Assembly (NCBI RefSeq): GCF_003667315.2
Contig: NZ_RCTZ02000023.1
Coordinates: forward strand, 1 to 64,000
DNA length: 64,000 nucleotides
From: Tropicibacter alexandrii
GTDB taxonomy: Bacteria > Pseudomonadota > Alphaproteobacteria > Rhodobacterales > Rhodobacteraceae
Reading direction: 5' to 3'
Below the pieces are notes generated by a model, which had not been told where the DNA came from, searched no databases, and saw only the letters and a list, made by a program, of their open reading frames with translations. Positions 7,489 through 22,712 of this stretch are shown piece by piece. Both the position numbers and the translations under genes were made by a program. How positions within the stretch are numbered: the stretch's first letter is position 1; each line of letters opens with the position of its first letter.

Positions 7489-9588
7489 ATGCTGACCCGC
7501 GCCGAAAATCGGCTTCAAAACCTGTGGGATGACGCCCGTGCAAAGGACATGAGCGAACCCGAGAAGCTGCTGTACCGATCCAACCTTCTGGGCTCCGACA
7601 AGCGAATCACGAACTACGGCGGCGGCAACACCTCGGCCAAGGTGATGGAGAGCGATCCGCTCACCGGCGATCAGGTCGAGGTGCTGTGGGTCAAAGGATC
7701 GGGCGGCGATGTCGGCTCGATCAAGATGGACGGCTTTGCCACGCTCTACATGGACAAGCTGCGCGCCCTGAAGGGCAAGTATCGCGGCGTCGACCACGAA
7801 GACGAGATGGTCGGCTACCTGCCGCATTGCACCTTCAACCTGAACGCCCGCGCGGCCTCCATCGACACGCCGCTGCACGCCTATGTGCCGAAAAAGCACG
7901 TCGACCACATGCATCCGGACGCGATCATCGCCATCGCGGCATCAAAGAATTCGCGCGAATTGACCGCCGAGATCTTTGGCGACGAGATCGGTTGGCTGCC
8001 GTGGAAGAAGCCCGGCTACGAACTGGGTCTGTGGCTGGAGAAATTCGCGCTCGAAAACCCTCAGGCCAAGGGGGTCGTGCTCGAAAGCCACGGCCTGTTC
8101 ACATGGGATGACGACGCGAAGGCCTGCTACGAACTGACCTTGGAGATCATCCAGAAGGCGATGGACTGGTTCGAGGAAAAGACCGCCGGGGTCGCGGCCT
8201 TTGGCGGCGCGGAGCATACGTCGCTGGCACCGGAGGCGCGCCGCGCGGTTGCGGCGCGGTTGATGCCCGCGATCCGCGGCTTCGTCTCGGGCAACCAGCA
8301 CATGGTCGGTCATTTCGAGGACAGCGCCACGGTTCTGGAATTCGTGAACGCCAAGGACATGCGGGCCCTCGCGGCCCTTGGCACCTCCTGCCCGGACCAC
8401 TTCCTGCGCACCAAGATCCGCCCGCTGGTGATCGACTTCGACCCGGCGCAGAACGATATCGACGGCGTGCTGGCTGGCTTGGCGGACCAGATCGCCGCCT
8501 ATCGCGACGATTACGCCGCCTATTACGACCGCTGCAAACATGCGGACAGCCCCGCGCTGCGCGATCCCAATGCAGTGGTCTACCTCGTGCCCGGTGTCGG
8601 CATGATCACCTTTGCCAAGGACAAGGCGACGGCGCGCATTTCGGGCGAATTCTACGTCAACGCCATCAACGTGATGCGTGGCGCCTCGTCGGTGTCGGAA
8701 TATGTCGGTCTGCCCGAGCAGGAGGCCTTCGATATCGAATACTGGCTCCTCGAAGAGGCCAAGCTGCAACGCATGCCCAAGCCCAAGTCCATGGCGGGCC
8801 GCGTGGCCTTGGTCACCGGCGGCGCGGGCGGGATCGGCATGGCGACGGCGGACAGATACCTGTCCGAAGGGGCCTGCGTGATGCTGGCGGACATCGATCC
8901 TGAGACACTTGATACGGCGCTCGACAGCCTGACCCAGCGCTACGGGCGCGATGTCGTGCGCGCTGTCCAGATGAACGTGACGGATGAGACCGCCGTTTCT
9001 GCGGCCTATGCCGATCTCGCGGTGGAATACGGCGGCATCGACATCCTTGTGTCGAATGCGGGCATCGCCTCCTCGGCCCCGATCGAAGACACCACCCTCG
9101 ACCTGTGGCAGAAGAACATGGACATCCTCTCGACCGGGTATTTCCTTGTCTCCCGCGAGGCGTTCAAGATGCTGCGGGTGCAGGGCTTGGGTGGCTCGGT
9201 CGTGTTCGTGGCGTCCAAGAACGGCCTCGCGGCCTCCCCCAATGCCTCGGCCTATTGCACCGCCAAAGCGTCGGAAATCCATCTGGCCCGCTGCCTCGCG
9301 CTGGAAGGGGCCGAGGCGGGCATTCGCGTCAATGTCGTGAACCCCGATGCGGTGCTGCGCGGGTCCAAGATCTGGGAGGGCGAGTGGCTGGAACAGCGCG
9401 CATCCACCTATGGCACCGACAAGGGCGGCCTCGAAGAGATGTATCGCCAGCGCTCCTTGCTGAAACGGTCGGTCCTGCCGGAGGACATCGCCGAGGCGGC
9501 CTATTTCCTCGCCTCGGACCGGTCGGCCAAGTCCACGGGCAACATCATCAATGTCGACGCCGGCAACAAGGAAGCCTTCACGCGCTGA
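7489..9588 (+). CDS. rhaD: Bifunctional rhamnulose-1-phosphate aldolase / short-chain dehydrogenase (RhaD)
   Basis: A 699-aa fusion. Residues up to about 430 form a class II aldolase/adducin domain with GGGNTSAK and metal-binding HMHPDAI; it cleaves rhamnulose 1-phosphate to DHAP and L-lactaldehyde. The C-terminal part is a short-chain dehydrogenase with the NAD(P) site TGGAGGIG, SNAG and the catalytic YCTAK; it is thought to act on lactaldehyde. Two ATGs lie close together (7483, 7489). The GGGAGG site at 7478-7482 is well spaced only for 7489. It is the first gene of the rightward rhaDI operon. Confidence 0.9.
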   Translation: MLTRAENRLQNLWDDARAKDMSEPEKLLYRSNLLGSDKRITNYGGGNTSAKVMESDPLTGDQVEVLWVKGSGGDVGSIKMDGFATLYMDKLRALKGKYRGVDHEDEMVGYLPHCTFNLNARAASIDTPLHAYVPKKHVDHMHPDAIIAIAASKNSRELTAEIFGDEIGWLPWKKPGYELGLWLEKFALENPQAKGVVLESHGLFTWDDDAKACYELTLEIIQKAMDWFEEKTAGVAAFGGAEHTSLAPEARRAVAARLMPAIRGFVSGNQHMVGHFEDSATVLEFVNAKDMRALAALGTSCPDHFLRTKIRPLVIDFDPAQNDIDGVLAGLADQIAAYRDDYAAYYDRCKHADSPALRDPNAVVYLVPGVGMITFAKDKATARISGEFYVNAINVMRGASSVSEYVGLPEQEAFDIEYWLLEEAKLQRMPKPKSMAGRVALVTGGAGGIGMATADRYLSEGACVMLADIDPETLDTALDSLTQRYGRDVVRAVQMNVTDETAVSAAYADLAVEYGGIDILVSNAGIASSAPIEDTTLDLWQKNMDILSTGYFLVSREAFKMLRVQGLGGSVVFVASKNGLAASPNASAYCTAKASEIHLARCLALEGAEAGIRVNVVNPDAVLRGSKIWEGEWLEQRASTYGTDKGGLEEMYRQRSLLKRSVLPEDIAEAAYFLASDRSAKSTGNIINVDAGNKEAFTR

Positions 9589-9664
9589 ACGGACGGTGGA
9601 TCGAAAGCCGGCCTTGCCGTTGGCGGCAAAGGCGGCCTGTGATCCGCGATAGGGAGGATTTTGA

Positions 9665-10903
9665 ATGACCTACGAACAGGCCCGCGCGGCCTTTGCCGAC
9701 TGGGGCATCGACACCGAGGCCGCGCTTGCGACGCTCGCGACGATCCCGATCTCGATGCATTGCTGGCAAGGGGACGACGTGCGCGGTTTCGAGCAGGCGA
9801 CGGGCACCTCGGGCGGCGGTATTCAGGCCACGGGCAACCATCCCGGCCGCGCCCGCACGCCGGATGAGTTGCGCGCCGATCTGGAATTCGCCTATTCCCT
9901 GATCCCCGGCAAGCACCGGCTGAACCTGCACGCCTTCTACCTCGATACGGACGAGAGCCCGGACCGCGACGAGATCGAGTTCCGGCACTTCACGCCGTGG
10001 CTCGAATGGGCCGCGGAACAGGGCATCAAGCTCGACTTCAACCCGACCTTCTTTGCCCATGCCAAGGCCGACGACAACCTGACCCTGTCGCACCCGGATC
10101 AGGGCATCCGGGATTTCTGGATCGAGCATGGCAGGCGATGCCGCGAGATCGCGGCGCAGATGGGCGCGGCACAGGGTGGCGAAGTCGTCAACAACATCTG
10201 GGTGCCGGACGGGTCCAAGGACAATCCGGTCGACCGAATGGGCGCGCGTCGGCGACTGGAGACATCGCTCGACGCGATGCTCGCCCCGAAGCACGACAGG
10301 GCGCATCTGCTCGACGCGGTGGAATGCAAGCTGTTTGGCATCGGCGTAGAGGCCATGACCGTGGGCAGCCACGAATTCTACTTGGGCTATGCGATCCGGA
10401 ACCAGACGGCGCTCTGCCTCGATATGGGCCATTTCCACCCGACCGAGAACGTGGCCGACAAGCTGACCGCCGTGGCGCTTTCGGTGCAGGACATCCTGTT
10501 GCACGTCTCGCGTCCGATGCGCTGGGACAGCGACCACGTCATCCTGCTCGACGACAGTATTCGGGCGATGGCGCAGGAAATCGTCTTCTCCGACCTGCTG
10601 GCGCGGACGCGGATCGGTCTCGACTTCTTCGATGCCACGATCAGCCGCACGGCGGCTTGGGTCATTGGCGTGCGCAACATGCAAAAGGCGCTGCTCGAAG
10701 CGTTGCTTGCACCGCAGGACCGATTGCGCGCCGCCGAAACCGCGCTCGACTTCACCACCCGGTTCATCCTGACCGAAGAACTCAAGAGCCTGCCCTATGG
10801 TGCCATCTGGACCGAGTTCTGCGCCCGCACCGAGCGACCGACAGGCCCCGGTTTGATCGACGCGTTGAACGCCTACCAGAAAGCCGTGGCCGCGCGGGGG
10901 TGA
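9665..10903 (+). CDS. rhaI: L-rhamnose isomerase, RhaI type
   Basis: A 412-aa TIM-barrel sugar isomerase of the RhaI class, distinct from E. coli RhaA. Recognisable segments are SMHCWQGDDV, the glycine-rich TSGGGIQATGNHPG, LDMGHFHPTENV and SDHVILLDD, which supply metal and substrate ligands in the family. It converts L-rhamnose to L-rhamnulose. ATG at 9665 follows AGGGAGG. An imperfect hairpin in the 76-nt gap after rhaD (about 9610-9634) could shape mRNA stability but has no T-tract. The gene converges on the sensor kinase at 10932. Confidence 0.9.
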   Translation: MTYEQARAAFADWGIDTEAALATLATIPISMHCWQGDDVRGFEQATGTSGGGIQATGNHPGRARTPDELRADLEFAYSLIPGKHRLNLHAFYLDTDESPDRDEIEFRHFTPWLEWAAEQGIKLDFNPTFFAHAKADDNLTLSHPDQGIRDFWIEHGRRCREIAAQMGAAQGGEVVNNIWVPDGSKDNPVDRMGARRRLETSLDAMLAPKHDRAHLLDAVECKLFGIGVEAMTVGSHEFYLGYAIRNQTALCLDMGHFHPTENVADKLTAVALSVQDILLHVSRPMRWDSDHVILLDDSIRAMAQEIVFSDLLARTRIGLDFFDATISRTAAWVIGVRNMQKALLEALLAPQDRLRAAETALDFTTRFILTEELKSLPYGAIWTEFCARTERPTGPGLIDALNAYQKAVAARG

Positions 10904-10931
10904 GCGACATCCATCCGATCCGCGCGCCGTT

Positions 10932-12278
10932 TCAAGGCCAGGTGCCCGACCCCTCGGTCGGTAGCGTCACGCTGGCCTGAAAACCGGTTTCGGAACCGGG
11001 TCGGGGCGAGGCAAGGACAAGCGGGTGACCAAACCGGTCCGCGATGGCGGCCACGATGGCAAGGCCCAGCCCGCTGCCATCGGTGCTCGACCCCGCCCGT
11101 TCAAACCGGGTTGTCAGCCGGTCCAAGGCGTCGCGCGGCAGCACGGGGCCCTCGTTTGAGACGATGAACTGCCCGTCGGGCGTCAATGTCACCTCGACCG
11201 GCGACGTTTGTGCGCCGTGGCGCAGGGCGTTCTCGACCAGATTGCGGCACAGGATACCGAACGCGTCGGGGTCGAGGTCCGACAGGACCGGCGCATCGGG
11301 CAAGCTCAGCACGATACGATCCGGCGCGCTCATGCGCTGGATATCCTGCACCACGAGTTGCGCGACAGCGCGCAGGTCGGTGCTTTGCTCCATGCGAAGC
11401 CGCCCCCCCTCGGCCCGTGCAAGCTGCATCAGGCGTTCCGACAGGCGGGTCAGCCGTTTGAGCGTTGTCTCGATCTCTCCGGCGCGGGCCTTGGCAGCGG
11501 GGTCGGCGGTTTCGGATTGCAGGCGCTGCGCCTGCGCGATGGCCCCGGCGAGCGGCGTGCGCAATTCATGCGCGGCATTGGCGGCAAAGCTGCGCTCTGC
11601 CTCGAAGGCGGAATGCAGCCGCGCCAGAAGGCTGTTGAGCGTGGTGGCCACCGGGTCGATCTCGGCGGGCAGATCGTTCGCGGGCACCGGGGACAGATCC
11701 CGCGCATTGCGGGTCTCCAGTCTGGCGCGAAAATGGCGCAGCGGGGCGAGGTTCCTGCGCACGGCCAAGACGATGGCCGCAAGCGCGATGGGCAGGACGA
11801 CCATGAGCGGCAGGCCAAGCCCCATCTGGATGCTTTGCGCCACCTCCTTGCGATGGTCCAGCGGCTCCGCGACGGTGATGCGGATCGTGTCCTGAAGCAC
11901 CGCGGCGCTATAAAGCCGGTGGCTCGCGGTGTCGTGGAACCCCGGCCTGTCATAAGGCGGAAACACCGACGGGTCGGCGGCATGGGATTGCAGCAGGATG
12001 CGGCCCTGAGGATCACGCACGACATAGGTGAAGTACTCGTCATGGGCGCGGATGGCGGCGAGCCGTTGCGTCAGACCCTGCTCTTCGCGACCGACGATTT
12101 CGGTCACGGCCAAAGGCAGGATGCGTTCCGCCGTCTCGCGCAGCGCGGCGTCGAACACCTCGTCCATCTCGTGGCGCACCAGAACGGCCGTCGCCGTCGC
12201 GGCGAGAATCCAGCAGACCGCAAGGACCAGACCGACCGACAGCCCGAGCCGCGCCTGCAGGCTGCGCGGCAGCCTCAT
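10932..12278 (-). CDS. Two-component sensor histidine kinase (QseC/TctE-like)
   Basis: A 448-aa membrane kinase with a hydrophobic segment at about residues 12-33, a periplasmic loop of about 120 residues, a second membrane segment at about 150-172 and a HAMP-like linker. The H-box is NAAHELRTPLAGAIAQ and the ATP site contains NLVENALRHG and GSGLGLAIV. Its start overlaps the response-regulator stop (ATGA). Divergence from the PepSY/b561/DUF2271/ApbE cluster suggests it controls those redox genes; the signal is unknown, with metals, peptides or redox state as reasonable guesses. Confidence 0.88.
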   Translation of the reverse strand: MRLPRSLQARLGLSVGLVLAVCWILAATATAVLVRHEMDEVFDAALRETAERILPLAVTEIVGREEQGLTQRLAAIRAHDEYFTYVVRDPQGRILLQSHAADPSVFPPYDRPGFHDTASHRLYSAAVLQDTIRITVAEPLDHRKEVAQSIQMGLGLPLMVVLPIALAAIVLAVRRNLAPLRHFRARLETRNARDLSPVPANDLPAEIDPVATTLNSLLARLHSAFEAERSFAANAAHELRTPLAGAIAQAQRLQSETADPAAKARAGEIETTLKRLTRLSERLMQLARAEGGRLRMEQSTDLRAVAQLVVQDIQRMSAPDRIVLSLPDAPVLSDLDPDAFGILCRNLVENALRHGAQTSPVEVTLTPDGQFIVSNEGPVLPRDALDRLTTRFERAGSSTDGSGLGLAIVAAIADRFGHPLVLASPRPGSETGFQASVTLPTEGSGTWP

Positions 12279-12934
12279 GGTTTGCCCAGCCGGTAGCCCA
12301 TGCCGCGCTCGGTTTCGATCAGTTTGGACCCGAGCTTTTTGCGCAGACGGCTGACATGGACTTCGATGGTGTTGCTGTCGATCTCGGTATCGAAGGCATA
12401 CAGCTTTTCTTCAAGCTGCGCCTTGGACAGAAGCTGGCCGGGCCGCGACAGGAAGGCCTCGAACAGCGCCCATTCGCGGGCGGTCAGTTGCACCGGCTTG
12501 CCATCGCGGTGGATGCTGCGGGCGGCAAGGTCGATGTCCAACGCCCCGTGGCAGATGATCGGGTTCGGATTGCCGCTGTAGCGCCGCCCGACAGACCCGA
12601 TCCGTGCGGACAGTTCGGCCAGATCGAAGGGTTTGACCAGATAATCGTCCGCCCCCGCATTCAGCCCCTCGATCCGGTCCGACACCTGATCCAGCGCGGT
12701 CAGGATGATGACCGGGGTCACATCGCCCTGTTTGCGCAAGGTCTTGAGGAACGCGATCCCGCGCCCATCGGGCAGCATGAGATCCAGCAGGATCAGGTCG
12801 TAGGACGCCCCGCGCACCGCCTCGCCCGCCGCATCCAGCCGCGTCACCCAATCGACCGACTGGCCATCGGCGGCGATCTGGTCCCGCACGGCGGGGCCCA
12901 AGACGGTGTCATCCTCGATCAGCAGGATACGCAT
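12275..12934 (-). CDS. OmpR/PhoB-family response regulator (QseB-like)
   Basis: A 219-aa response regulator. The receiver domain starts MRILLIEDD, the phosphorylated Asp lies in LILLDLMLPDG at about residue 51, and the conserved Lys is in LVKPFD. The C-terminal winged helix ends SNTIEVHVSRLRKKLG...RGMGYRL. ATG at 12934 gives the standard family start; an in-frame ATG 21 nt upstream (12955) is possible. It is probably autoregulated through the repeat box at 12984-13035. Confidence 0.9.
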   Translation of the reverse strand: MRILLIEDDTVLGPAVRDQIAADGQSVDWVTRLDAAGEAVRGASYDLILLDLMLPDGRGIAFLKTLRKQGDVTPVIILTALDQVSDRIEGLNAGADDYLVKPFDLAELSARIGSVGRRYSGNPNPIICHGALDIDLAARSIHRDGKPVQLTAREWALFEAFLSRPGQLLSKAQLEEKLYAFDTEIDSNTIEVHVSRLRKKLGSKLIETERGMGYRLGKP

Positions 12935-12983
12935 GGCGGCTCTGCTCCTATTCATACTCGCACCCCAGACATGGCCTGCCTGC

Positions 12984-13035
12984 CTGACGCAAAGCTGACG
13001 CCGCCGGACATTGCGCTTCAGGCTGCCGTCAGCTT
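12984..13035. promoter_or_regulatory. Candidate response-regulator box between the two-component operon and the first PepSY gene
   Basis: A direct repeat CTGACG-N5-CTGACG (12984-12989 and 12995-13000) has the one-helical-turn spacing typical of OmpR-family sites. AAGCTGACG (12992-13000) is also repeated in exact inverted form as CGTCAGCTT at 13027-13035. A TATAAA-like element follows at 13042. A close match to the 17-bp core, CTGACG-N2-AAGCTGA-N-G, recurs at 14132-14148 upstream of the second PepSY gene. Confidence 0.6.
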
Positions 13036-13083
13036 GGCCCTCTATAAACTGAATATCGCTGCCCGGAACAAGGAGCTTGGCCC

Positions 13084-13401
13084 ATGCGAAAGACATCCCT
13101 GATACTTGCCTGCCTCGCCGTTTACGCGGCCAGCCCGGCGCTGGCAGATGATGATTGCTTTGTCCCGATGGAAAACTGGCAGCCCCGGGACGCGGTTGCA
13201 GGGCTGGCCAAGGAGAAGGGCTGGACCGTGCGCCGGATCAAGATCGACGACGGCTGTTATGAAATCGATGGCCGGGATGCGGAGGGGCGGCAGATCGAGG
13301 TCACGATCCATCCCGCCACGCTCGATGTGATCGAGTTCGAATACGAGGACGAAGACGACGACCATGACGACGACAAACGAAAGGGCCGTGACGATGACTG
13401 A
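13084..13401 (+). CDS. Secreted PepSY-domain protein with Asp-rich tail
   Basis: A 105-aa exported protein. A signal peptide ends at about ALA (residue 21), followed by a single PepSY domain that contains the paired segments ENWQPRDAV and DDGCYEIDGRD. Two Cys residues in the mature part could form a disulfide. The last about 25 residues are mostly Asp/Glu/Lys, a possible cation-binding patch. An AAGGAG site precedes the ATG. It is the first gene rightward from the two-component system, and its end overlaps the cytochrome b561 frame by 8 nt. Single-PepSY proteins are usually small periplasmic partners or inhibitors; the exact role here is unknown. Confidence 0.8.
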   Translation: MRKTSLILACLAVYAASPALADDDCFVPMENWQPRDAVAGLAKEKGWTVRRIKIDDGCYEIDGRDAEGRQIEVTIHPATLDVIEFEYEDEDDDHDDDKRKGRDDD

Positions 13402-14065
13402 TCGCGAAGCAGACGCCGCCCCGCAGGGGCCAAGCGACACAGCCGGTCTGGTGCGCATCTGGGACCCGCTGGTGCGCGTCTTTCACTAGAGCCTCGTCGC
13501 GGCCTTCGCGGTGGCGTGGCTAAGCGCCGAAGAACTCGATACCGTGCACGAGATCGCGGGCTACGTCGTCGCGGGGCTTGTGGCCTTCCGTCTTGTCTGG
13601 GGGCTGATCGGCCCCCGCCATGCGCGCTTTGCCCACTTCGTGAAGGGGCCGAGGGCGGTGCTTGCCTATCTCAAGGACATGACCGGCGGCAGGGAACGGC
13701 GCTATCTTGGACACAACCCGGCGGGCGGCGCGATGGTGATCGCGCTTCTGCTCACCTTGTCGGGCACGGCCTTCACCGGCTGGCTGCTGGAGGAACCCGA
13801 CCGCATGGCGATGCTGCCAGAACTGCCGCAGATCGTGGCACCCGCATGGGCCGATGATGATGACGGGTACGAGGGCTACGGCCAGAACGGATATTCCGCA
13901 GAGATGCTCGGAGACGTCCACGAGACCCTTGCCAATCTGATGCTGTTGCTTGTGGCCCTGCATGTCGGTGGCGTGATCCTTGCCTCCGTCCGCCACAAAG
14001 AGAACCTCGCCCGCGCCATGGTCACCGGTGACAAGCGCGCCCCGGCACCGTCGGATATGCCATAA
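13394..14065 (+). pseudogene. Cytochrome b561-family protein, interrupted by an in-frame TAG
   Basis: A reading frame of 224 codons starting at ATG 13394, overlapping the PepSY stop, and ending in TAA. It is typical of the bacterial Ni/Fe-hydrogenase-type or b561 cytochromes: about four membrane helices with heme-ligand His residues in VRVFH, TVHEIAGY, DVHETLAN and LHVGG. Codon 32 (13487-13489) is TAG where the family normally has Trp (VFHW). Translation restarting at GTG 13511 would lose the first heme-ligand His and half of helix 1. The rest of the frame is intact and includes a DDDD-rich loop at about codons 154-158. It is a recent nonsense mutation, readthrough or a sequencing error; the sequence cannot decide. 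Confidence 0.8.
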
Positions 14066-14097
14066 ACCCAAGGCCGTTCGTCCCTTCGGCCTGCCTC

Positions 14098-14126
14098 GGC
14101 CCCGCCCAGACCGGCGGGGCCTTTTT
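14098..14126 (+). terminator. Rho-independent terminator after cytochrome b561
   Basis: A perfect 9-bp stem GGCCCCGCC / GGCGGGGCC with a 6-nt loop, followed by TTTTT. It separates the first PepSY-b561 unit from the second PepSY gene, so the latter probably has its own promoter. Confidence 0.9.
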
Positions 14127-14131
14127 CGTTC

Positions 14132-14148
14132 CTGACGACAAGCTGAAG
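14132..14148 (+). promoter_or_regulatory. Second copy of the candidate response-regulator box
   Basis: CTGACGACAAGCTGAAG matches the box at 12984-13000 at 14 of 17 positions, with the same 11-nt period between half-sites. It sits just after the terminator and about 78 nt before the second PepSY start, so it may make the PepSY-DUF2271-reductase-ApbE genes part of the same regulon. Confidence 0.55.
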
Positions 14149-14225
14149 CAGAAAGCGCCGTCGTGTCAGGAAGCCCTCAGATCGGCTCCCCAGATTGGGT
14201 TCATCAGAAAACAGGAGATGATCCC

Positions 14226-14609
14226 ATGAAAAAGACCCTGACCATGCTGACGATTGCTGCCCTGCTGCCCGCCGGTGTCGTGCTTGCCGACGATGACGGC
14301 TGCTCTGTGCCGCGCGACCAGTGGCAGCCCCGCGAAGCCGCGCTTCAGGTGGCGCAAGACAATGGCTGGACCGTTGCGGACTTCGAAATCGACGATGGCT
14401 GCTACGAGATCGAGGGCCGCGATGCGGATGGCCGCGAGATCGAGGTCAAGCTCGACCCCGCGACGCTTCAGGTCGTCGAAATGGACTACGAGGATGACGA
14501 TGACGACTACGGCACGGCTGCCGACAACCCGGCCCCGGCTGGCACCGTCGCGCCGCCGCAAAACGGGCTGTTCGGCACCGGCACGCCGCCGAAGGTCAAG
14601 GTGAACTGA
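14226..14609 (+). CDS. Secreted PepSY-domain protein, paralogue of the first
   Basis: A 127-aa exported protein. The signal peptide ends near VVLA, followed by a PepSY domain very similar to the one at 13084 (DQWQPREAAL, DDGCYEIEGRD) and an Asp-rich stretch EDDDDD. It then adds a Pro/Gly-rich tail absent from its paralogue. ATG 14226 follows AGGAG; an upstream in-frame ATG at 14163 is less likely because it would place 21 residues before the signal peptide. It probably starts the transcript that continues into DUF2271, the flavoreductase and apbE. Confidence 0.82.
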   Translation: MKKTLTMLTIAALLPAGVVLADDDGCSVPRDQWQPREAALQVAQDNGWTVADFEIDDGCYEIEGRDADGREIEVKLDPATLQVVEMDYEDDDDDYGTAADNPAPAGTVAPPQNGLFGTGTPPKVKVN

Positions 14610-14650
14610 GCGCCTGTGACCCCTGACCTTCCAACCAAAGGATAGACCCG

Positions 14651-15121
14651 ATGAAATCCCTTCTCTCGACCCTCGTGCTGACCACGGCGCTGACGATGCC
14701 CGGCCTTGCCATGGCGCGGCAGGTCACCCTGACCACCAACCTCAAGACTTACGGCGGCGATGGTGCCTATCTTGCGCTCTATGTGACGGACGCCTCCGAC
14801 ACCTATGTCGGCAGTCTCTGGATGGCTGGCGGAAAGTCGAAATATTACAAACACCTGACCGGATGGTATCGCGCCACGGGGGGCGATACCGCGCAGGTCA
14901 ACGGGATCACCGGCGCCAGCGTCGGCGCGGGCCGGTCGCTTGAGATCACGCTCGATCTGGCCGATGCCCTGTTCGATGCGGGCTACACGCTGCATATCGA
15001 CGCCGCTGTCGAGGATATGCGCGACAGCCCGAACGAAGTGTCCGTGCCGCTGACCACCGACGGGGTGGGAACGCCCGTGACGGGGCGTCGCTACATCGCC
15101 GATTTTACCTACGACATGTAA
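14651..15121 (+). CDS. DUF2271 protein, candidate covalent-FMN carrier
   Basis: A 156-aa exported protein with a signal peptide ending near AMA. It matches the DUF2271 family, with the characteristic WMAGGKSKYYKHLTGWYRAT. Residues 84-90, NGITGAS, resemble the S/T-G-A-S/T motif that ApbE flavinylates, with Thr87 or Ser90 as candidate attachment residues. An apbE gene lies three genes downstream in the same run. The function is inferred: a periplasmic electron carrier accepting electrons from the membrane flavoreductase. Confidence 0.78.
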   Translation: MKSLLSTLVLTTALTMPGLAMARQVTLTTNLKTYGGDGAYLALYVTDASDTYVGSLWMAGGKSKYYKHLTGWYRATGGDTAQVNGITGASVGAGRSLEITLDLADALFDAGYTLHIDAAVEDMRDSPNEVSVPLTTDGVGTPVTGRRYIADFTYDM

Positions 15122-15133
15122 GGGGATCGGGCC

Positions 15134-17341
15134 ATGATCCGTGCACTCCATCGCTGGCCGGGTCTTCTGGCCCTTGCCCTTGTCTCGGCGCTCGCGCTCA
15201 GCGGCGCGGCGCTGTCCGTCTTTCCTGCGGCGGATCGTCTGACCGCGCCGCAGGCCGAGGCGGGCCTGACCGTCGCGCAATTGTCCGAGCGTATTCAGGC
15301 GGTCTATCCTACGGTCGAACAGATCCGGCGCGCGCCCTCGGGCCGGATCACCGCCTATTGGTTCGACAACGACACCCCCGGTGCGGCGATCATCGACCCC
15401 GCCACGGGGCAAGGCGCAGGATCGGCCGATCCCAACCCGGTCGAGCGTTGGCTGACCAATTTCCACCGCGCGCTCTTGCTGGGCGACGGGGGGCGTCTCG
15501 TGATGGCGGCGGGGGCCTTGGCGATGTTGGTCCTGTCGGTCAGCGGCGCGGCGCTGGTGGCGCGGCGGATGGGCGGCTGGCGGCATTGGTTTGCGCCGCT
15601 GCGTGGGACCGTGCCGGGCCGCCTGCATGTGGAACTTGCACGGGTCGCGGTGGTCGGTCTGGTGCTGTCCTCCGTGACCGCCCTTTGGATGGTCGCCGTC
15701 ACCTTTGAAGTGATCCCGGAAAACGCCGCCATGCCGGAGTTTCCGGCAGAGGTCAGCGGCGAGACAGGCATCGCCCTTGCGGATATGGCGGTGATCGGCA
15801 CCACGCCGGTGGCCGCGCTGCGCGAGTTGAGCTTTCCCTATCCCAACGATCCGACCGATGTCTTCACGCTTCGGACAGATCAGGGCACCGGGTATCTCGA
15901 TCAGGGCAGCGGGGCGCTCTTGGCGTGGGCCGATCTGTCCCTGTGGGAACGGATTTCGGAAACCATCTACATGCTGCATACCGGCCAAGGGGCGGCAGCA
16001 CTTGGGCTTGTGCTAGGCGTCATGGCGCTAGGCGTGCCAGCGATGGGGGCCACGGGCTTTCTCATCTGGCTGTCCGGGCGGCGCGGACGCCCCCGCATCC
16101 GGGGCAACGTGGCCGCAGGCCGGGCCGAGACCATCGTGCTGGTCGGCAGCGAAGGCGGCAGCACGTGGGGGTTTGCCGCGACGCTGCACGCCGCGCTGAC
16201 GCAGGCCGGGCAAAGCGTACATGTCGCGCCGATGTCATCCTTCGATCCCGCCCGCTATGGCCACGCCGAGCGGATGATCGTGCTGGCCGCGACCTATGGC
16301 GACGGCGATGCGCCCGCCTCGGCCAAGGGGTTTCTGGATCGGCTGGACGCGCTTGACCGAGCACCGGACATCCCGCTCGCCGTGCTTGGGTTCGGGGATC
16401 GCAGCTTTCCGGCCTACTGCGCCTTTGCCAAGGCCGTCGCGGCGGCAGCACAGGCCAAAGGCTGGCCCGGCCTCATGGGCATGGACATGATCGACCGCCA
16501 ATCGCCGCAGGACTTCGCGCGCTGGGGGCGTGACCTCGGGCAGGCCATGGGAATCGCGCTCGACCTGATCCATCACCCCGTCTTGCCCAAGACCGAGGCG
16601 CTGACCCTGATCGCGCGCCGCGACTATGGCGCAGAGGTGCAGGCCCCGACGGCGATCCTGCGCTTTGCGCTGCCGCGTGTTTCGCTGTGGCAACGGCTGA
16701 CCGGCCAAGGCTTTGCCCGGTTCGACGCAGGCGATCTGATCGGCATCCTGCCCGAGGGCAGCCCGGTGCCGCGCCTCTATTCGCTCGCATCCGGCCGCCG
16801 CGATGGGTTTGTCGAAATCGTGGTCAAGAAGCACCCCGGCGGCCTGTGTTCGGGGCAGCTTGCGGCGCTGGAACCCGGCGACACCGTCACCGCCTATCTG
16901 CGCCGCAATCCCGGGTTTCGACCGCGCCGCGACGCCACCCCGTTGATCCTGATCGGGGCGGGCACCGGGATCGGGCCGCTGGCGGGTTTCGTGCGCGGCA
17001 ACGCGCGGCAGCGGCCCATTCACCTGTTTTTCGGGATGCGCCATCCAAGCAGCGATTTCCTCTATGGCGAGGCGCTGCGCGACTGGCAGGACAAGGGTCT
17101 GCTGACCCGGCTGGTCACGGCGGTCTCGCGCGAGGCGAAGCCGCAATATGTGCAGGACGCGCTGCGCGGCGACGCCGCCCAAGTGGCCCAGCTGATCCGG
17201 GACGGGGCCCGCGTGATGGTCTGCGGCGGGCGGGACATGGCCGCTGGCGTCACCGATGCCTTGGCCGAGATACTCGCGCCCTCCGGGCTGACCCCGGCGA
17301 CCCTGAAAGCAGAAGGACGGTATGTCGAAGATGTCTACTGA
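15134..17341 (+). CDS. Membrane PepSY-flavodoxin-FNR fusion (CysJ-like flavoreductase)
   Basis: A 735-aa fusion. The N-terminal about 320 residues form a PepSY_TM membrane module with about four hydrophobic helices (near residues 12-30, 118-140, 172-195 and 290-312) and a periplasmic loop. A flavodoxin-like FMN domain follows (VLVGSEGGSTWGFA, ATYGDGDAPASA), then an FAD-binding domain (PRLYSLAS) and an NAD(P)H domain (LIGAGTGIGPLAGF, VCGGRD). It likely moves electrons from cytosolic NADPH through FAD and FMN across the membrane. The start lies 12 nt after the DUF2271 stop and the end overlaps apbE by 20 nt. Confidence 0.87.
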   Translation: MIRALHRWPGLLALALVSALALSGAALSVFPAADRLTAPQAEAGLTVAQLSERIQAVYPTVEQIRRAPSGRITAYWFDNDTPGAAIIDPATGQGAGSADPNPVERWLTNFHRALLLGDGGRLVMAAGALAMLVLSVSGAALVARRMGGWRHWFAPLRGTVPGRLHVELARVAVVGLVLSSVTALWMVAVTFEVIPENAAMPEFPAEVSGETGIALADMAVIGTTPVAALRELSFPYPNDPTDVFTLRTDQGTGYLDQGSGALLAWADLSLWERISETIYMLHTGQGAAALGLVLGVMALGVPAMGATGFLIWLSGRRGRPRIRGNVAAGRAETIVLVGSEGGSTWGFAATLHAALTQAGQSVHVAPMSSFDPARYGHAERMIVLAATYGDGDAPASAKGFLDRLDALDRAPDIPLAVLGFGDRSFPAYCAFAKAVAAAAQAKGWPGLMGMDMIDRQSPQDFARWGRDLGQAMGIALDLIHHPVLPKTEALTLIARRDYGAEVQAPTAILRFALPRVSLWQRLTGQGFARFDAGDLIGILPEGSPVPRLYSLASGRRDGFVEIVVKKHPGGLCSGQLAALEPGDTVTAYLRRNPGFRPRRDATPLILIGAGTGIGPLAGFVRGNARQRPIHLFFGMRHPSSDFLYGEALRDWQDKGLLTRLVTAVSREAKPQYVQDALRGDAAQVAQLIRDGARVMVCGGRDMAAGVTDALAEILAPSGLTPATLKAEGRYVEDVY

Positions 17342-18266
17342 ACGCACGCGCCACGCGCTGAACGGGGCGACCATGGGCACGCGTTGGTCTGCGCTGTATT
17401 TTGCGGCCCCGGGCCACGACCCGGAGCCGGTTCGCGCCGCGCTTCAGGCCGCCGTGGACGCGGTCGACGCCCAGATGTCGACTTGGACCGCGACCAGCAA
17501 CCTGATGCGCCTGAACGCAGCCCCAGTCGGCACATGGGTCGCGGTGCCCGAACAGCTTCGCGATGTCTTGCGCCTTGGGCTGGAGATCGGGCGCGCCTCT
17601 GGCGGTGCCTTCGATGTCGGCATGGGGGACGCGGTGACTGCTTGGGGCTTTGGGCCGCAAGACGCCGCGCCGGACCGCATCCGTGAGGCAATGTCCACCG
17701 ACCGTCAGCCCGCGCACACGGTGTTGGAGATCGGTGAGACCGATGTCCGCAAATCCGCGCCGCTTGCGCTTGATCTGAACGGCATCGCAAAGGGATACGG
17801 CGTGGATCGGCTGGCCGACACCCTGCGCGACCATGGGATCGAGAATGCGCTGGCGGGGATCGACGGCGAAATGCGCGCGCTCGGGCTTCGGCCCGACGGG
17901 CAAGCCTGGACCATCGCGATCGAGGCACCGGACCCGGATCGGCGCGCGGCGCAGGCCATGCTCGCGCTGGAGCAGGCCGCCGTGGCGACCTCGGGCGACT
18001 ATCGCCACTGGGTCGAGGTGCAGGGCCGCCGCCTGTCGCATACGATGGACCCGAAGCGCAGGGCCCCTTTGCTTGCCTCGCCCGCCTCGGTCACCGTGGT
18101 GGCGCGTAGCTGCGCGGAGGCCGACGCATGGGCAACGGCGCTGATGGTGCTGGGGGTCGAACAGGGATCAGCGCTTGCACAGGCGCGCGGTCTGGATGCG
18201 CTGTTCCAGATGCGGGACGCCCGTGGAGAAATCCAAAGCAGGGGTGTTGGACGCCTGTTCGGTTGA
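17322..18266 (+). CDS. apbE: FAD:protein FMN transferase (ApbE)
   Basis: A 314-aa ApbE-family protein that attaches FMN from FAD to Ser/Thr of target proteins. Recognisable parts are MGTRW near the start, GGAFDVGMGD, DLNGIAKGYGVDRLAD and the C-terminal SGDYRHW...LSHTMDPKR. ATG 17322 follows AGAAGGA; an ATG at 17331 is too far from it. No signal peptide or lipobox is visible, unlike many ApbE proteins, which leaves open where it meets the exported DUF2271 target. Overlap with the flavoreductase gene argues for a shared operon. Confidence 0.9.
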   Translation: MSKMSTERTRHALNGATMGTRWSALYFAAPGHDPEPVRAALQAAVDAVDAQMSTWTATSNLMRLNAAPVGTWVAVPEQLRDVLRLGLEIGRASGGAFDVGMGDAVTAWGFGPQDAAPDRIREAMSTDRQPAHTVLEIGETDVRKSAPLALDLNGIAKGYGVDRLADTLRDHGIENALAGIDGEMRALGLRPDGQAWTIAIEAPDPDRRAAQAMLALEQAAVATSGDYRHWVEVQGRRLSHTMDPKRRAPLLASPASVTVVARSCAEADAWATALMVLGVEQGSALAQARGLDALFQMRDARGEIQSRGVGRLFG

Positions 18267-18288
18267 AAGGCTGAAAGGGTCGGTCGGT

Positions 18289-19773
18289 TCACGCGTCGCC
18301 CGCAGCGCCGACCAAGGCCATTTCGGAACCGAGCCGACGCACCTCGTGGACCAAGATGTCGATATCTTCGTCCTTGGTGCGGTGGTTGCATAGTGCGACG
18401 CGCAGGCAGTGTCGGCCACGGATCGTGGTGTCAGAGAGGATGGCGATACCGCTTTCTTGAATACGCAGCATGATTTCGGTGTTGTGGGCGCGCAGATCGG
18501 CTTCACGCATGCCATCGGGCGCGTGGCGAAAACAGACGACGCTGGTTGCAGTCGGCGCCATCCGTTCCAGATCGGGCGCGGCATCGATCAGCGCCGTCAG
18601 GCGAGCGGCCTGCGCGATGTTGCGGTCGAGTATGCGTCCAAAGCGTTCGACCCCGTGATGGCGCAGCATCATCCAGACTTTGAGCGCCCGGAAACCACGC
18701 GTCGTTTCAAGACCGTAATCGTGCAGGAACTCGGTCGCCGCCAGACCGCGCGTCGCCACCTGCAGGTACTCGGCGCTTTCGGCAAAGGTCGCGCGATGGA
18801 CATTGCGGTCGCGCAGCAGGGCACATCCCACGTCGAAAGGCGCGTTCAGCCCCTTGTGCAGATCGAGGGCGAGCGAGTCCGCCCGTTCGATCCCCGCCAC
18901 CAGATGCCGACTGGATGGCGCGATGGAGAACAGAGCCCCGATACAGCCATCCACATGAAGCCAGAGCCCCTCGTCCCGGCACAGGTCCGCGATCTGGGGC
19001 AAGGGGTCTATCGCGCCCGTGTTGGTTGTGCCTGCGGTGGCGATCACGCAGGCGGGGCGCGCGCCGCGTTGGCGGTCGGCCTCGATCGCGCTGCGCAGCG
19101 CAGCAAGGTCCATGCGAAACGCGTTATCCGTGGCGACGCGCGTCAGCGCGCTGCCGCCAAGGCCCAACAGGTTCATCGCTTTCATGTGACAGGAATGCAC
19201 CTGATCCGAGGCATAGAACCGCAGCGGCGCGGTGATGTCGGCGACGCTGCGGGTATGCAGGTCCACCCCCGCCATCGTGTTTCGCGCCGCCATCAACCCC
19301 ACGATATTGGCCATCGATCCACCGTTGACCAGCGTCCCGCTGCCGCCCTCGGGAAAGCCCATCATCTGGCGCAGCCAGTCCGTGACCTGACGGTCCACTT
19401 GGTTTGCGCCGGTATCGCCCCCGCCAAGGTTTGAGCCGTCGATGGCCGCGAGAAAATCCGCCAGCGCGCCGGTCAGGCAGCCTGCCCCCATGTACCAAGC
19501 CCAGAACCGCGGATGGATATTGCCCATGGCGTGGGGGTAGAGTTTGTGCTTCACGTCGGCATAGACCGCCTCCAGCGGGGCCGGGCCTGTAGGCGGCGGG
19601 CCACGAAACCCTGCCTTCATCGCATCCGGCATCGGTTGCCAGACCGGCGCGTCGCGCAGCCCTTGCAGGCGCGAGATGGCATCGTCCACCATGACATGCG
19701 CCAATCTGCGCATGTCCTCCCAATCGCCGGGATCAAGGCTGTCTTCCGTATCGATCTGCGTATCGTGCGCCAT
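18289..19773 (-). CDS. PLP-dependent group II amino-acid decarboxylase family
   Basis: A 494-aa member of the aromatic-L-amino-acid/glutamate decarboxylase family. The PLP lysine is K307 in LALDLHKG. Other family features are NGGSMANIVGL, ATAGTTNTGAIDP and the cofactor-contact segment WLHVDGCIGA. The substrate cannot be assigned: relatives act on DOPA, tyrosine, tryptophan, glutamate or aspartate, and some perform oxidative deamination. It converges with apbE and follows the cysteine-synthase-like gene by about 176 nt, so cotranscription is uncertain. Confidence 0.85.
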   Translation of the reverse strand: MAHDTQIDTEDSLDPGDWEDMRRLAHVMVDDAISRLQGLRDAPVWQPMPDAMKAGFRGPPPTGPAPLEAVYADVKHKLYPHAMGNIHPRFWAWYMGAGCLTGALADFLAAIDGSNLGGGDTGANQVDRQVTDWLRQMMGFPEGGSGTLVNGGSMANIVGLMAARNTMAGVDLHTRSVADITAPLRFYASDQVHSCHMKAMNLLGLGGSALTRVATDNAFRMDLAALRSAIEADRQRGARPACVIATAGTTNTGAIDPLPQIADLCRDEGLWLHVDGCIGALFSIAPSSRHLVAGIERADSLALDLHKGLNAPFDVGCALLRDRNVHRATFAESAEYLQVATRGLAATEFLHDYGLETTRGFRALKVWMMLRHHGVERFGRILDRNIAQAARLTALIDAAPDLERMAPTATSVVCFRHAPDGMREADLRAHNTEIMLRIQESGIAILSDTTIRGRHCLRVALCNHRTKDEDIDILVHEVRRLGSEMALVGAAGDA

Positions 19774-19949
19774 GGTTTGCCGTCCGTTTCATTGCGCAGC
19801 GGGCCCGCCTGTTGCCGGGCGGTCCAGTTGCGACGGGTTTCAGTCAGGGGAAAGCCGTATGACCACGGTTGCGCCGAGCGGCAGGATCATCACCCCGCAT
19901 GCACTTCATGCAGAGGTCGTTACGGCTTCTCCCTGTCTTGCTTCGATAT

Positions 19950-21035
19950 TTACTCGGCGGCCATCCGGTATCCGGGCGTCGAGTCGGACAGGGCGCGTTC
20001 GTCGTCATCCATGTCCTCCGGGATATCCGCGAATAGCGGGGTCGACAGATAACGCTCGCCGGTATCGGGCAGCATGGCGAGGATCACAGCGCCCCGTTCC
20101 GCCCGTTCCGCCACCTGCATGGCAATGGCGAAACTGGACCCGCCAGAGATTCCGGTCAGGATCCCTTCTTGCGCGGCGAGCTTCTTGGCCCATGCGATCC
20201 CGTCCGCCCCGGCCACCGGGATCAACGCGTCATAGCCCCCCTTGTCCAAAGCCTCCTGCAGGACAAGCGGGATGAAGTCAGGCGTCCACCCTTGGATCGG
20301 ATGCGGCTCGAACGCAGGGTGGCTGCCTGCGGGCGAGCCGTCAGCGCCACGGTCCTGCGCGACGCCGCTGGCGATCAACGCGGCATTTGCCGGTTCACTC
20401 AGAATGATCTTCGTCTCCGGACGTTCCTTGCGCAGCACACGCGACAGCCCTGCGACCGTGCCACCCGTACCGAAGCCGGTGACGACGTAATCCAGCCTGT
20501 CGTCCTTGAAGTCGTTGATGATCTCGCGCGCCGTGGTCGTTTCGTGGATGTCGGCATTGGCAGCGGTCTCGAACTGGCGGGCGAGGAACCAACCGTGCTT
20601 TTCCGCCAGTTCGGCCGCCTTGCGATACATGCCGGTGCCTTTCTCGGCGCGCGGCGTCAGCACCACCTTTGCGCCCAGCATCCGCATCAACCGCCGCCGC
20701 TCGACCGAGAAACTGTCGGCCATGGTCACGACGAGCGGATAGCCCTTCTGCGCACAGACCATGGCCAGACCGATGCCGGTATTGCCGCTGGTCGCCTCGA
20801 CCACGGTTTGGCCCGGTTTCAGCGTGCCGTCGCGCTCTGCCGCCTCGATGATGTTCAGCGCCAACCGGTCCTTGATCGACGCCGCCGGGTTGAAGAACTC
20901 GGCCTTGACGTAAAGCCTGACACCCTCCGGCGCGAGGTTGTTGATGCGGATCACGGGGGTGTCGCCGACAGTGTCGAGCACGGACCCGAACAGGCGGCCC
21001 CTCCCTTGGGTCCTGCGGATGGTCTTGGCGGTCAT
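19950..21035 (-). CDS. Cysteine synthase-like PLP beta-synthase (CysK family)
   Basis: A 361-aa fold-type II PLP enzyme. The PLP Lys is K55 in NPAASIKDRLAL, the phosphate loop is TSGNTG (82-87) and the substrate loop is GFGTGGTVAG. The family makes cysteine from O-acetylserine and sulfide. It is longer than the usual 310-330 aa, with an acidic extension at the C-terminus and an insert around DRGADGSPAGSHP, so it may be a specialised paralogue. ATG 21035 follows GGGAG; an ATG at 21059 has no site. It diverges from the CadC-like regulator. Confidence 0.85.
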   Translation of the reverse strand: MTAKTIRRTQGRGRLFGSVLDTVGDTPVIRINNLAPEGVRLYVKAEFFNPAASIKDRLALNIIEAAERDGTLKPGQTVVEATSGNTGIGLAMVCAQKGYPLVVTMADSFSVERRRLMRMLGAKVVLTPRAEKGTGMYRKAAELAEKHGWFLARQFETAANADIHETTTAREIINDFKDDRLDYVVTGFGTGGTVAGLSRVLRKERPETKIILSEPANAALIASGVAQDRGADGSPAGSHPAFEPHPIQGWTPDFIPLVLQEALDKGGYDALIPVAGADGIAWAKKLAAQEGILTGISGGSSFAIAMQVAERAERGAVILAMLPDTGERYLSTPLFADIPEDMDDDERALSDSTPGYRMAAE

Positions 21036-21161
21036 GGCAATCTCCCTTTGTTCGGTCATTCGCTTCGCATTTCGCCATCTTGGACCCGTTTGGCGGTGAA
21101 ACGCTTGATGCCGATCTGAAGATTTCATGCAGAAATGCCCAAAACTGGGCTATGCTGGATC

Positions 21162-22712
21162 ATGGCTTGGCTTTTCGGTGATCACCGGCTCGACCCGGAC
21201 CTGTTCGAACTCACCTGCAAAGGGGACGTTGTGCATGCCGAGCCACAGGTCTTGGCACTGATCATCCACCTTGTCCGAAATCGCGCCCGAATGGTCAGCA
21301 AGGACGAGATCGCCAGCACCGTCTGGCCCGACCGTGCCGTATCGGATGCCAGCATCGCCAGCCGGATCCGGTCGGCGCGGCAGGCGCTTGGCGATGATGG
21401 CTGCGCGCAGGCCGTCATCCGCACGATCCACGGCAAGGGCTTTCGGTTCGTGGCCGAGGTCAAAGAGGCCAGCCCAGCCCTGCCCCACCAAACCCGGCCT
21501 TCGGACGCCGACACCGGCGCCGACCTGTCCCGCCCCTCGGTTGCGGTCCTGCCCTTCCGACCGCTCGGCGCATCACCCGAAGTCACGATCCTCGCAGAAG
21601 CCATTCCGCACGAGATCATTCAGGGGCTTTCGCGCCTGCGCTGGATTTCGGTGATCGCACGCGGTTCGTCGTTTCGCTTCCGCGAAGGACGGGGCGATCT
21701 GGATCTGGTCGGCACGGCGCTGGGCGCAGGCTATGTCATGACCGGAGTGATCGAAAGTCTGGCCGGCACGGTCGCCGTGGTTCTCGAACTGGCCGATGCC
21801 AGCCGCGGCGAGGTGATCTGGGCCGACCGGCTGACCGCCCCCATGGACGGGATCGAGGACTTGCGGCAGCGGGTCGTCGCGCAGGTCGTGACCGCGCTCG
21901 ACATGCACGTGCCGCAAAACGAGGTGCGCCTTGCATCGCAGACCGGCTCGGACCGGCTGGATGCATGGAAGACCTTTCACCTCGGATTGACCCAGCTTTA
22001 CCGGTTTACACCCGACGCAAATCAGGTCGCAAAGGGGCATTTCGAGCGCGCGATCGCGCTCGACCCGCGATTTGCACGCGCGCATGCGGGCCTGTCGTTC
22101 ACACGGTTCATCGACGCGTTCCTGCATCTGGGGCCCAGTGACGCGGAGGCCGCCAGTGCCGCCAGACGCCATGCCGAGCGTGGCATAGAACTGGACCCGA
22201 TCGACCCGTTCACGCATTATACGATGGGCCGGTCCTACTGGCTGACCGACCAGCCCGAGATCGCCAAGGGGTGGTTCGATCGCGCCATCGAGCTGAACCC
22301 CAACTATGCCCAAGGCTTTTACGCCAGCGCCTTCACCGCGCTGATGACCGGCGACATCAAGACGGTGGATGCGGGGCTTGATGCAGCGCTATTACTCAGC
22401 CCGCTGGACCCGCTGCTCTACGGAATCCACGGCGTGCGGGCGCAGGCGATGATTCAGGTCGGAGACTTGCAGGCCGCTGCCCGGCTGGGCGACCGCGCGG
22501 CCTCCACCCCCGGCGCGCACTACCTCATCTCTATGGTGGCCGCGGTGGCCAACGGGCTGGACGGGCGCTACGAACAGGCCCATCGCTGGCGACAGGACGC
22601 GCGTCGGCGCAAACCGGATGCCTCCGCCGCCCAGTATTTTGCGGCCTTCCCGATCCGCAACGAAAAGGCCCGGCACCAGATCGCGGAAGAGCTGAAACGG
22701 CAGGGATTCTGA
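21162..22712 (+). CDS. CadC-like winged-helix regulator with TolB-like and TPR regions
   Basis: A 516-aa protein. Residues 1 to about 100 form an OmpR-type winged helix (IASRIRSARQALGDDG, IRTIHGKGFRFVAEV) with no receiver domain. The middle (SVAVLPFRPLGAS to about residue 250) matches the TolB-like domain of CadC/adenylate-cyclase-type regulators, and the C-terminal half contains TPR-like repeats. No membrane segment is visible, unlike E. coli CadC. A start at 21135 is also possible and neither has a strong ribosome site. It may regulate the divergent PLP enzymes, as CadC regulates a decarboxylase, but this is only position-based. Confidence 0.82.
   Translation: MAWLFGDHRLDPDLFELTCKGDVVHAEPQVLALIIHLVRNRARMVSKDEIASTVWPDRAVSDASIASRIRSARQALGDDGCAQAVIRTIHGKGFRFVAEVKEASPALPHQTRPSDADTGADLSRPSVAVLPFRPLGASPEVTILAEAIPHEIIQGLSRLRWISVIARGSSFRFREGRGDLDLVGTALGAGYVMTGVIESLAGTVAVVLELADASRGEVIWADRLTAPMDGIEDLRQRVVAQVVTALDMHVPQNEVRLASQTGSDRLDAWKTFHLGLTQLYRFTPDANQVAKGHFERAIALDPRFARAHAGLSFTRFIDAFLHLGPSDAEAASAARRHAERGIELDPIDPFTHYTMGRSYWLTDQPEIAKGWFDRAIELNPNYAQGFYASAFTALMTGDIKTVDAGLDAALLLSPLDPLLYGIHGVRAQAMIQVGDLQAAARLGDRAASTPGAHYLISMVAAVANGLDGRYEQAHRWRQDARRRKPDASAAQYFAAFPIRNEKARHQIAEELKRQGF

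Follow-up and report, generated by a model that had tools for sequence, protein, structure and literature searches.

Comparison with described systems

PepSY-like membrane proteins encoded together with flavinylated proteins were described by Meheust et al. 2021 (PMC8238504; like the other papers below, cited from excerpts). There, a PepSY-like flavinylation system is defined by PF03929 or PF16357 no more than five genes away from ApbE, FMN_bind, DUF3570 or DUF2271, one or more of the latter four having a signal peptide. Here we analyse a gene cluster of Tropicibacter alexandrii contained in a stretch of 64,000 nucleotides (contig NZ_RCTZ02000023.1, positions 1 to 64,000; hereafter the window), in which a two-component system (TCS) faces genes for small PepSY proteins, a DUF2271 protein, a reductase fusion and ApbE, the flavin adenine dinucleotide (FAD):protein flavin mononucleotide (FMN) transferase. 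The PF03929 match (115 bits) lies in the reductase, whose gene adjoins those of DUF2271 and ApbE; judged from its sequence, the locus is a PepSY-like flavinylation system in the published sense, with the DUF2271 protein supplying the predicted signal peptide. The window proteins were assigned by Pfam, NCBIfam was also run, and the b561 frame was read through its stop for the family scans only. The features are the following:

10932-12278, minus strand: sensor histidine kinase (2CSK_N, HisKA, HATPase_c; QseC/PmrB-like; Pfam, NCBIfam)
12275-12934, minus strand: OmpR/PmrA-type response regulator (Pfam; best NCBIfam match PmrA, below its cut-off)
12984-13032, no strand: candidate operator A, in the divergent promoter (two mirror-image tandem pairs of CTGA half-sites, period of 11 base pairs, bp)
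13084-13401, plus strand: P1, small PepSY_2 protein with a signal-like N-terminus and an acidic C-terminus (Pfam)
13394-14065, plus strand: cytochrome b561 gene (Ni_hydr_CYTB), broken by an in-frame stop (sequence; family from read-through)
14132-14180, no strand: candidate operator B, upstream of P2-DUF2271-reductase-ApbE (same 49-bp architecture as operator A)
14226-14609, plus strand: P2, PepSY_2 protein with a signal-like N-terminus and a conserved 27-residue tail (Pfam; tail codons 14526-14606)
14651-15121, plus strand: DUF2271 protein with a Sec signal (AxA at residues 20-22) and NGITGAS at residues 84-90 (Pfam, 116.5 bits, cut-off 27.3)
15134-17341, plus strand: PepSY_TM-flavodoxin-FAD/NADPH reductase fusion with near-invariant His6, His111, His165 and His282 (Pfam)
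17322-18266, plus strand: ApbE without an export signal (Pfam PF02424, 258.5 bits; PDB relatives)

An original prediction, made from the sequence alone, had described a TCS facing PepSY, DUF2271, reductase fusion and ApbE genes. Each part that it named received a Pfam family, which bears out this description; the cluster, which it placed at 12275-18266, is real, although the histidine kinase falls outside that interval. Its model of a flavinylated carrier appears largely correct in kind.

Relatives were collected by a DUF2271-alignment scan of genome contigs, the best 80 of 393 being kept. With the window they make 81 loci, and counts on these describe the nearest relatives, not DUF2271 clusters at large. 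The TCS, DUF2271, reductase and ApbE remain grouped across them: a reductase match is found in 81/81, histidine kinase and response regulator are both present and divergent from the operon in 76/81, and apbE lies beside DUF2271 in 76/81, the remaining five loci (L070, L071, L097, L110, L115) ending at a contig edge. Among the loci fetched, the closest to the window copy belongs to Anianabacter salinae (DUF2271 93% identical). In L093 and L113 the reductase is in two pieces, which may reflect a broken gene or an assembly error.

Like the systems of Meheust et al. 2021, the locus unites a PepSY-like membrane protein, a DUF2271 protein with [S/T]GA[S/T] and apbE in one cluster, and NAD-binding PepSY fusions and VIT neighbours are reported there as well. 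It differs from them by a dedicated TCS, an operator, small PepSY/acidic proteins, a slot for b561 or a ferric-reductase-like gene, and an ApbE devoid of signal (76/76). None of the six plasmid regions inspected gene by gene (L004-L009), to which the search for it was confined, names DUF4198, which is frequent in the published systems (PMC8238504). The Caulobacter crescentus genes CCNA_03155-03159 likewise encode a PepSY membrane protein, a flavin-dependent reductase and a DUF2271 protein, with an iron-linked role in fitness under ethylenediaminetetraacetic acid; they are a Fur target and include DUF4198 (PMC11870441), whereas the window operon has its own TCS. Small exported PepSY proteins beside a TCS are known from DbfQRS of Vibrio cholerae and from BqsRS with PA2658/PA2659, the PepSY/TCS order being divergent in some species; unlike the window operon, no electron-transfer genes are named with them in the excerpts of PMC12714742. 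FoxB and other PepSY_TM ferrisiderophore reductases share the PepSY_TM core and conserved His, and theirs hold two haems (PMC11334425, PMC13038864); here, in contrast, the core is fused to a CysJ/P450-reductase-like diflavin half, which would give it its own NADPH input. Finally, the cytosolic ApbE of Klebsiella pneumoniae also has no signal peptide (per PMC12052999), but its substrate is a cytosolic fumarate reductase, whereas the only partner recognised here is exported.

In searches of the open-licence PubMed Central literature, this operon, its 49-bp operator and the 27-residue tail were not found described. Since the locus falls under the published definition and yet these three elements were not found there, we rate it as a variant of a known system type. 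PepSY-like/DUF2271/ApbE systems (2021) and small PepSY proteins beside a TCS are thus known, and what is most interesting here is the mismatch between the compartments of ApbE and DUF2271.

A predicted electron relay to the envelope

As a whole, the locus is best explained as a self-regulating operon that encodes a transmembrane electron relay to an envelope flavin protein, a reading that we consider moderately probable. The TCS would sense an envelope signal, and its regulator would control, through paired 49-bp operators, its own promoter as well as P1-b561 and P2-DUF2271-reductase-ApbE. Electrons would pass from NADPH to FAD and then FMN within the cytosolic half of the reductase, cross the membrane via two haems on the four conserved His, and reach an FMN held covalently on Ser90 of the periplasmic DUF2271 protein, to which cytosolic ApbE would have added it ahead of export through the general secretory (Sec) pathway. 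The final acceptor would probably be a metal ion held close to the acidic small proteins, with ferric iron as the likeliest candidate.

The DUF2271 carrier and its flavin site

NGITGAS was confirmed at residues 84-90 of the DUF2271 protein. The original prediction presupposed that this motif is kept among DUF2271 relatives next to apbE, and the conservation check agrees: [N/D/S]GITGAS is found in 81/81 loci (NGITGAS in 69, DGITGAS in 11, SGITGAS in 1), with apbE present in 76 of them, so the motif is not there by chance. Thr87 or Ser90 had been proposed as the acceptor. By the published [S/T]GA[S/T] rule, Ser90 is to be preferred over Thr87: the predicted FMN acceptor should be Ser90, the last residue of the motif, which is invariant across 26 alignment rows (codon 14918-14920). 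In Escherichia coli, the DUF2271 protein of A. ursilacus was flavinylated by its ApbE, and changing the predicted site abolished the modification (PMC8238504).

A Sec signal with AxA was found on DUF2271 in 81/81 loci, as judged by hydropathy and alignment, not SignalP; the 24 residues before cleavage reach a 13-residue mean hydropathy of at least 1.74 in all 81. A fold model of the protein (mean predicted local distance difference test score, pLDDT, of 72) had no PDB match at E <= 0.001.

An ApbE without an export signal

The absence of an export signal on ApbE, already seen in the original prediction, holds in the window and throughout the relatives, 0/76 cluster ApbEs bearing one. Hydropathy was averaged over 13 residues within at most 60 residues upstream of the conserved MG motif, or fewer where a stop intervened. 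No hydrophobic stretch precedes this motif in 76/76 cluster ApbEs (highest mean, 0.87), and a broader pass reached 1.26 (L112), from a stretch far upstream of it. In 62/76, no more than 25 codons separate the MG motif from the preceding in-frame stop, because the ApbE start overlaps the final codons of the reductase gene; this leaves no room for a signal. Compared with the PDB, ApbE matches 5mgy (E 8e-61), and the invariant residues are kept across the 76 cluster ApbEs. As read from these sequences, the missing export signal is the rule of this class.

ApbEs encoded elsewhere in the cluster genomes served as controls: 98 matches, minus 46 cluster genes and 3 others, left 49, and the N-termini of 40 were fetched. 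The three exclusions lie beside a second DUF2271 gene (G001 contig 21) or have a cluster-like score (one each in G511 and G512). By eye, 33/40 carry a twin-arginine translocation (Tat) motif or a Sec/lipoprotein signal, 3/40 have no signal (L224, L226, L233) and 4/40 are uncallable (L222, L231, L242, L249); by script, taking the most hydrophobic possible start, 32/40 lie above 1.5.

ApbE was also sought by Pfam in 48 genomes picked for a DUF2271 gene of or near this group. A single ApbE is present in 16/48; it is the cluster ApbE in 15 and lies elsewhere in G269. With G269 and the incomplete G029 (86%) set aside, 14 genomes remain (12 of them draft assemblies, judging by record title or number of contigs), including Rhizobium johnstonii 3841 (L109), each with one ApbE, the signal-less one of the cluster, and exactly one DUF2271. 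Pfam gave no FMN_bind match and no DUF3570 match in these 14 genomes; with a single DUF2271 in each, the DUF2271 protein is therefore their only recognised ApbE substrate.

The mismatch between ApbE and DUF2271 speaks for flavinylation ahead of export, or else for an unfamiliar export route, and the simplest reading of the sequences suggests that DUF2271 is flavinylated on the cytosolic side before Sec export. In its full form, cytosolic ApbE would flavinylate DUF2271, the still-unfolded, flavin-bearing chain would pass through Sec, and the carrier would then dock via the tail to metal-holding acidic/PepSY proteins; we hold this proposal tentatively, belief and doubt being nearly in balance. 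Several observations count against it. The 2025 ApbE review has ApbE modifying secreted proteins, a cytosolic form being named in its excerpts (PMC12052999) only for a cytosolic fumarate reductase or as a fusion to one. The A. ursilacus ApbE was produced with its signal peptide removed (PMC8238504), and therefore has a signal. The T. alexandrii genome contains a fourth ApbE with a Tat-type N-terminus, beside a NosR-like gene (L034, contig 55), which is why it is not among the 14 genomes. Lastly, a Pfam-based absence of other ApbE substrates cannot exclude unfamiliar ones, given the limits of Pfam sensitivity.

Alternatively, DUF2271 might be flavinylated in the periplasm after export, either in trans by an exported ApbE (here the NosX-like one with the Tat signal) or by the cluster ApbE exported by an unfamiliar route. 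This would agree with known ApbE practice (PMC12052999), with the Tat-type fourth ApbE of this genome, with the export signals of 33/40 other ApbEs from cluster genomes, and with two more distant loci with a TCS (L161, L162), where the models detect no apbE beside DUF2271 and an ApbE lies elsewhere in the genome. We nevertheless find it unlikely: in the 14 genomes, R. johnstonii 3841 included, Pfam finds no second ApbE for the one DUF2271, and apbE is next to DUF2271 in 76/81 loci, the other five being at a contig end. The localisation mismatch could also mean that the cluster ApbE has another cytosolic job, on an unrecognised substrate or in converting FAD to FMN for the flavodoxin, and that DUF2271 works without covalent flavin; Ftp of Treponema, a member of the ApbE family, does split FAD to FMN (PMC4767422). 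However, the [S/T]GA[S/T] motif of DUF2271 is invariant, the window reductase has none, and a published DUF2271 is flavinylated by its ApbE (PMC8238504), so that we judge this very unlikely.

If flavinylation before export is true, it would contradict the picture of ApbE modifying exported proteins from outside. The signal-less ApbE raises a sharp question, namely whether Sec export of a covalently flavinylated protein is possible, and R. johnstonii 3841, in which one ApbE and one DUF2271 were found, offers a clean setting for it.

In two more distant DUF2271-reductase-ApbE loci (L159, L160), ApbE is likewise without a visible signal, and the mismatch may extend past this class. In the classic DUF2271 clusters L169-L177, the ApbE N-termini are too uncertain for signal calls. 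On the Mameliella plasmid pKUB112, apbE is in two frames (L006:10974-11957) and absent from the gene table, while in the 99%-identical copy of the T. alexandrii genome (L032) it is one open frame.

The reductase and the electron path

His6, His111, His165 and His282, in the membrane half of the reductase, are kept in 80, 81, 80 and 79 of the 81 loci, respectively, the remainder being gaps, and all four are in or near long predicted helices (model mean pLDDT 76, predicted TM-score, pTM, 0.50). By analogy with PepSY_TM proteins (PMC11334425), these residues may bind haem, and the direction of electron flow would be the same. Among solved structures, those of sulfite reductase flavoprotein, P450 reductase and nitric oxide synthase reductase match the cytosolic half. 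FoxB (7ABW) is absent among the 50 structural matches listed of 333 (E <= 0.001), which are led by diflavin reductases, for a model with a pTM of 0.50; the haem geometry is therefore putative.

The proposed route from NADPH through FAD/FMN to a covalent DUF2271-FMN, put forward in the original prediction, fits the domains, the four His, the conserved motif and published DUF2271 flavinylation (PMC8238504). The reductase was also considered as an ApbE substrate and rejected: the window reductase has no [S/T]GA[S/T], and of six reductases compared, two have one match each.

The two-component system and a 49-bp operator

The divergent promoter could be aligned for 75/81 loci, the others having no recognisable regulator or PepSY gene start. 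It contains CTGAC repeats spaced by 11 bp, together with their mirror image. In the window, CTGAC-N6-CTGA has 3 matches (2 in the divergent promoter and 1 upstream of P2) against 0.35 expected, and 1/100 shuffles reached 3. One or more copies of CTGA-N7-CTGA lie in the divergent promoter of 75/81 loci and upstream of P2 in 66/81, compared with 0.07 per kb elsewhere. The full 49-bp pattern, CTGA-N7-CTGA-N19-TCAG-N7-TCAG, has no match in the window other than those at 12984 and 14132, two mismatches being allowed, and is seen in 0 of 100 shuffles.

Across the whole T. alexandrii genome, five places match the 49-bp operator with at most one mismatch; all are exact and all are located at the three copies of the operon described below, while a reversed-pattern control gave 0. 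The operator is present in 73/80 relative loci (absent from L067, L093, L097, L101, L108, L109 and L126), at least twice in 56/80 (spacer of 19-20), and in 57/295 family genomes. Of 30 operator loci fetched from this 295-genome scan, 28 adjoin genes of this operon; the matches away from it (2/30; L264, L275) resemble chance and were set aside. We infer that the neighbouring response regulator binds the 49-bp operators, whose sequence offers a way to trace the regulon of the envelope redox module and the signal it responds to.

Small PepSY proteins and a shared tail

The original prediction had noted Asp-rich runs in both PepSY proteins and in b561. Those near the C-termini of P1 and P2 are present, while the one in b561 sits downstream of the in-frame stop of that gene and hence belongs to no intact product. 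In P2, the acidic run is followed by the conserved 27-residue tail. The protein before DUF2271 ends in a tail resembling NPAPAGTVAPPQNGLFGNGAPPQVQVN in 68/81 loci, of 27 residues in 66/68 (text pattern). The part before the tail is PepSY-like in 25/68 and otherwise in 43/68, 42 of these 43 having an acidic run of at least 5; Pfam found no PepSY in 9/9 scanned tail proteins of the non-PepSY type, the window protein being positive as control. The tail also occurs once per record in 56 plasmid records. A nucleic-acid element was considered and rejected, as the codons vary at synonymous sites, and the constraint therefore acts on the protein. The tail may, we suggest, dock PepSY/acidic proteins to DUF2271 or to the reductase.

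The cytochrome b561 slot and metal-linked neighbours

A cytochrome b561 linking the relay to quinones was part of the original prediction. The gene family is right, the read-through scoring 96 bits in Pfam (PF01292, cytochrome b561), but no intact protein is encoded: an in-frame TAG at 13487-13489 occupies codon 32, in the first membrane helix, and the intact frame is absent from the window copy. In L006 and L007, a sense codon stands at this position of b561. Among the 81 loci, the gene in the slot after P1 is b561 in 34 and ferric-reductase-like in 19, while 28 have neither there; four of the 34 b561 genes are degraded, namely those of the window, its closest relative L048, L104 and L125. 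With b561 in just 34/81 loci and four of these genes degraded, it is not a required quinone link, being broken here and replaced or absent in many relatives. Read from the frame, the b561 branch is lost in the window copy. In L048, b561 remains as a fragment only.

A P1B ATPase is encoded in 51/81 loci, a VIT gene in 43/81, both in 38/81 and either in 56/81, anywhere in the fetched locus, some loci being short. In the ATPase of L004 the membrane motif is TPC, which we take to be that of Ni/Fe-type pumps. This linkage in relatives makes metal reduction a plausible role. It is weakened by the 25/81 loci with neither ATPase nor VIT, by the absence of a P1B ATPase or VIT gene within 8001-22000 of the window, by the broken b561, and by the kinase. 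After its first helix, the kinase (10932-12278) has R-E-T-A-E, and RExxE is a motif of Fe(II) sensors; its second E is kept in just 44/77 kinases and is Q in 33/77. The motif is thus not conserved, and iron sensing through it is no more than a candidate.

A relay with a non-metal role, as an envelope oxidative-stress reductase or a respiratory shunt, is possible as well, the small PepSY proteins then being kinase ligands and not metal binders. Indeed, the small periplasmic PepSY protein DbfQ directly controls the DbfS kinase, and added iron left the DbfQ/DbfS pathway reporter unchanged (PMC12714742). A small secreted PepSY protein near a TCS, the mark of DbfQRS-like systems, is found here too, and in most of the listed loci the genes for PepSY and the regulator diverge. 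Such a role is nonetheless doubtful in view of the P1B ATPase or VIT genes in 56/81 loci, the acidic runs of P1 and P2, and the published iron links of PepSY-like/DUF2271 systems.

Copies of the operon and plasmids

Three DUF2271 genes, each within such an operon, are found in the T. alexandrii genome (5.04 Mb in 86 contigs). The contig 4 copy shares 99.0% identity with the Mameliella alba plasmid pKUB112 across 12,346 bp, and the contig 20 copy shares 94.9% identity with the Salipiger plasmid pTPRO2 across 18,014 bp. The window copy might then be a decaying, non-functional duplicate, the two plasmid-like copies doing the work, as its broken b561, the lack of ATPase and VIT within 8001-22000 and the plasmid matches of the other two copies would suggest. 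However, none of the cluster's remaining frames is interrupted, DUF2271, reductase and ApbE retain their key residues, the two operators match exactly, and 28/81 loci have no b561 or ferric-reductase-like gene in the slot anyway; decay of the whole copy therefore seems to us quite unlikely.

The operon class represents an envelope redox module, often plasmid-borne, that many Rhodobacterales and rhizobia carry. When the region was compared with plasmids by megablast, it matched 57 records, of which 38 are from Pseudosulfitobacter and 49 are typed as conjugative.

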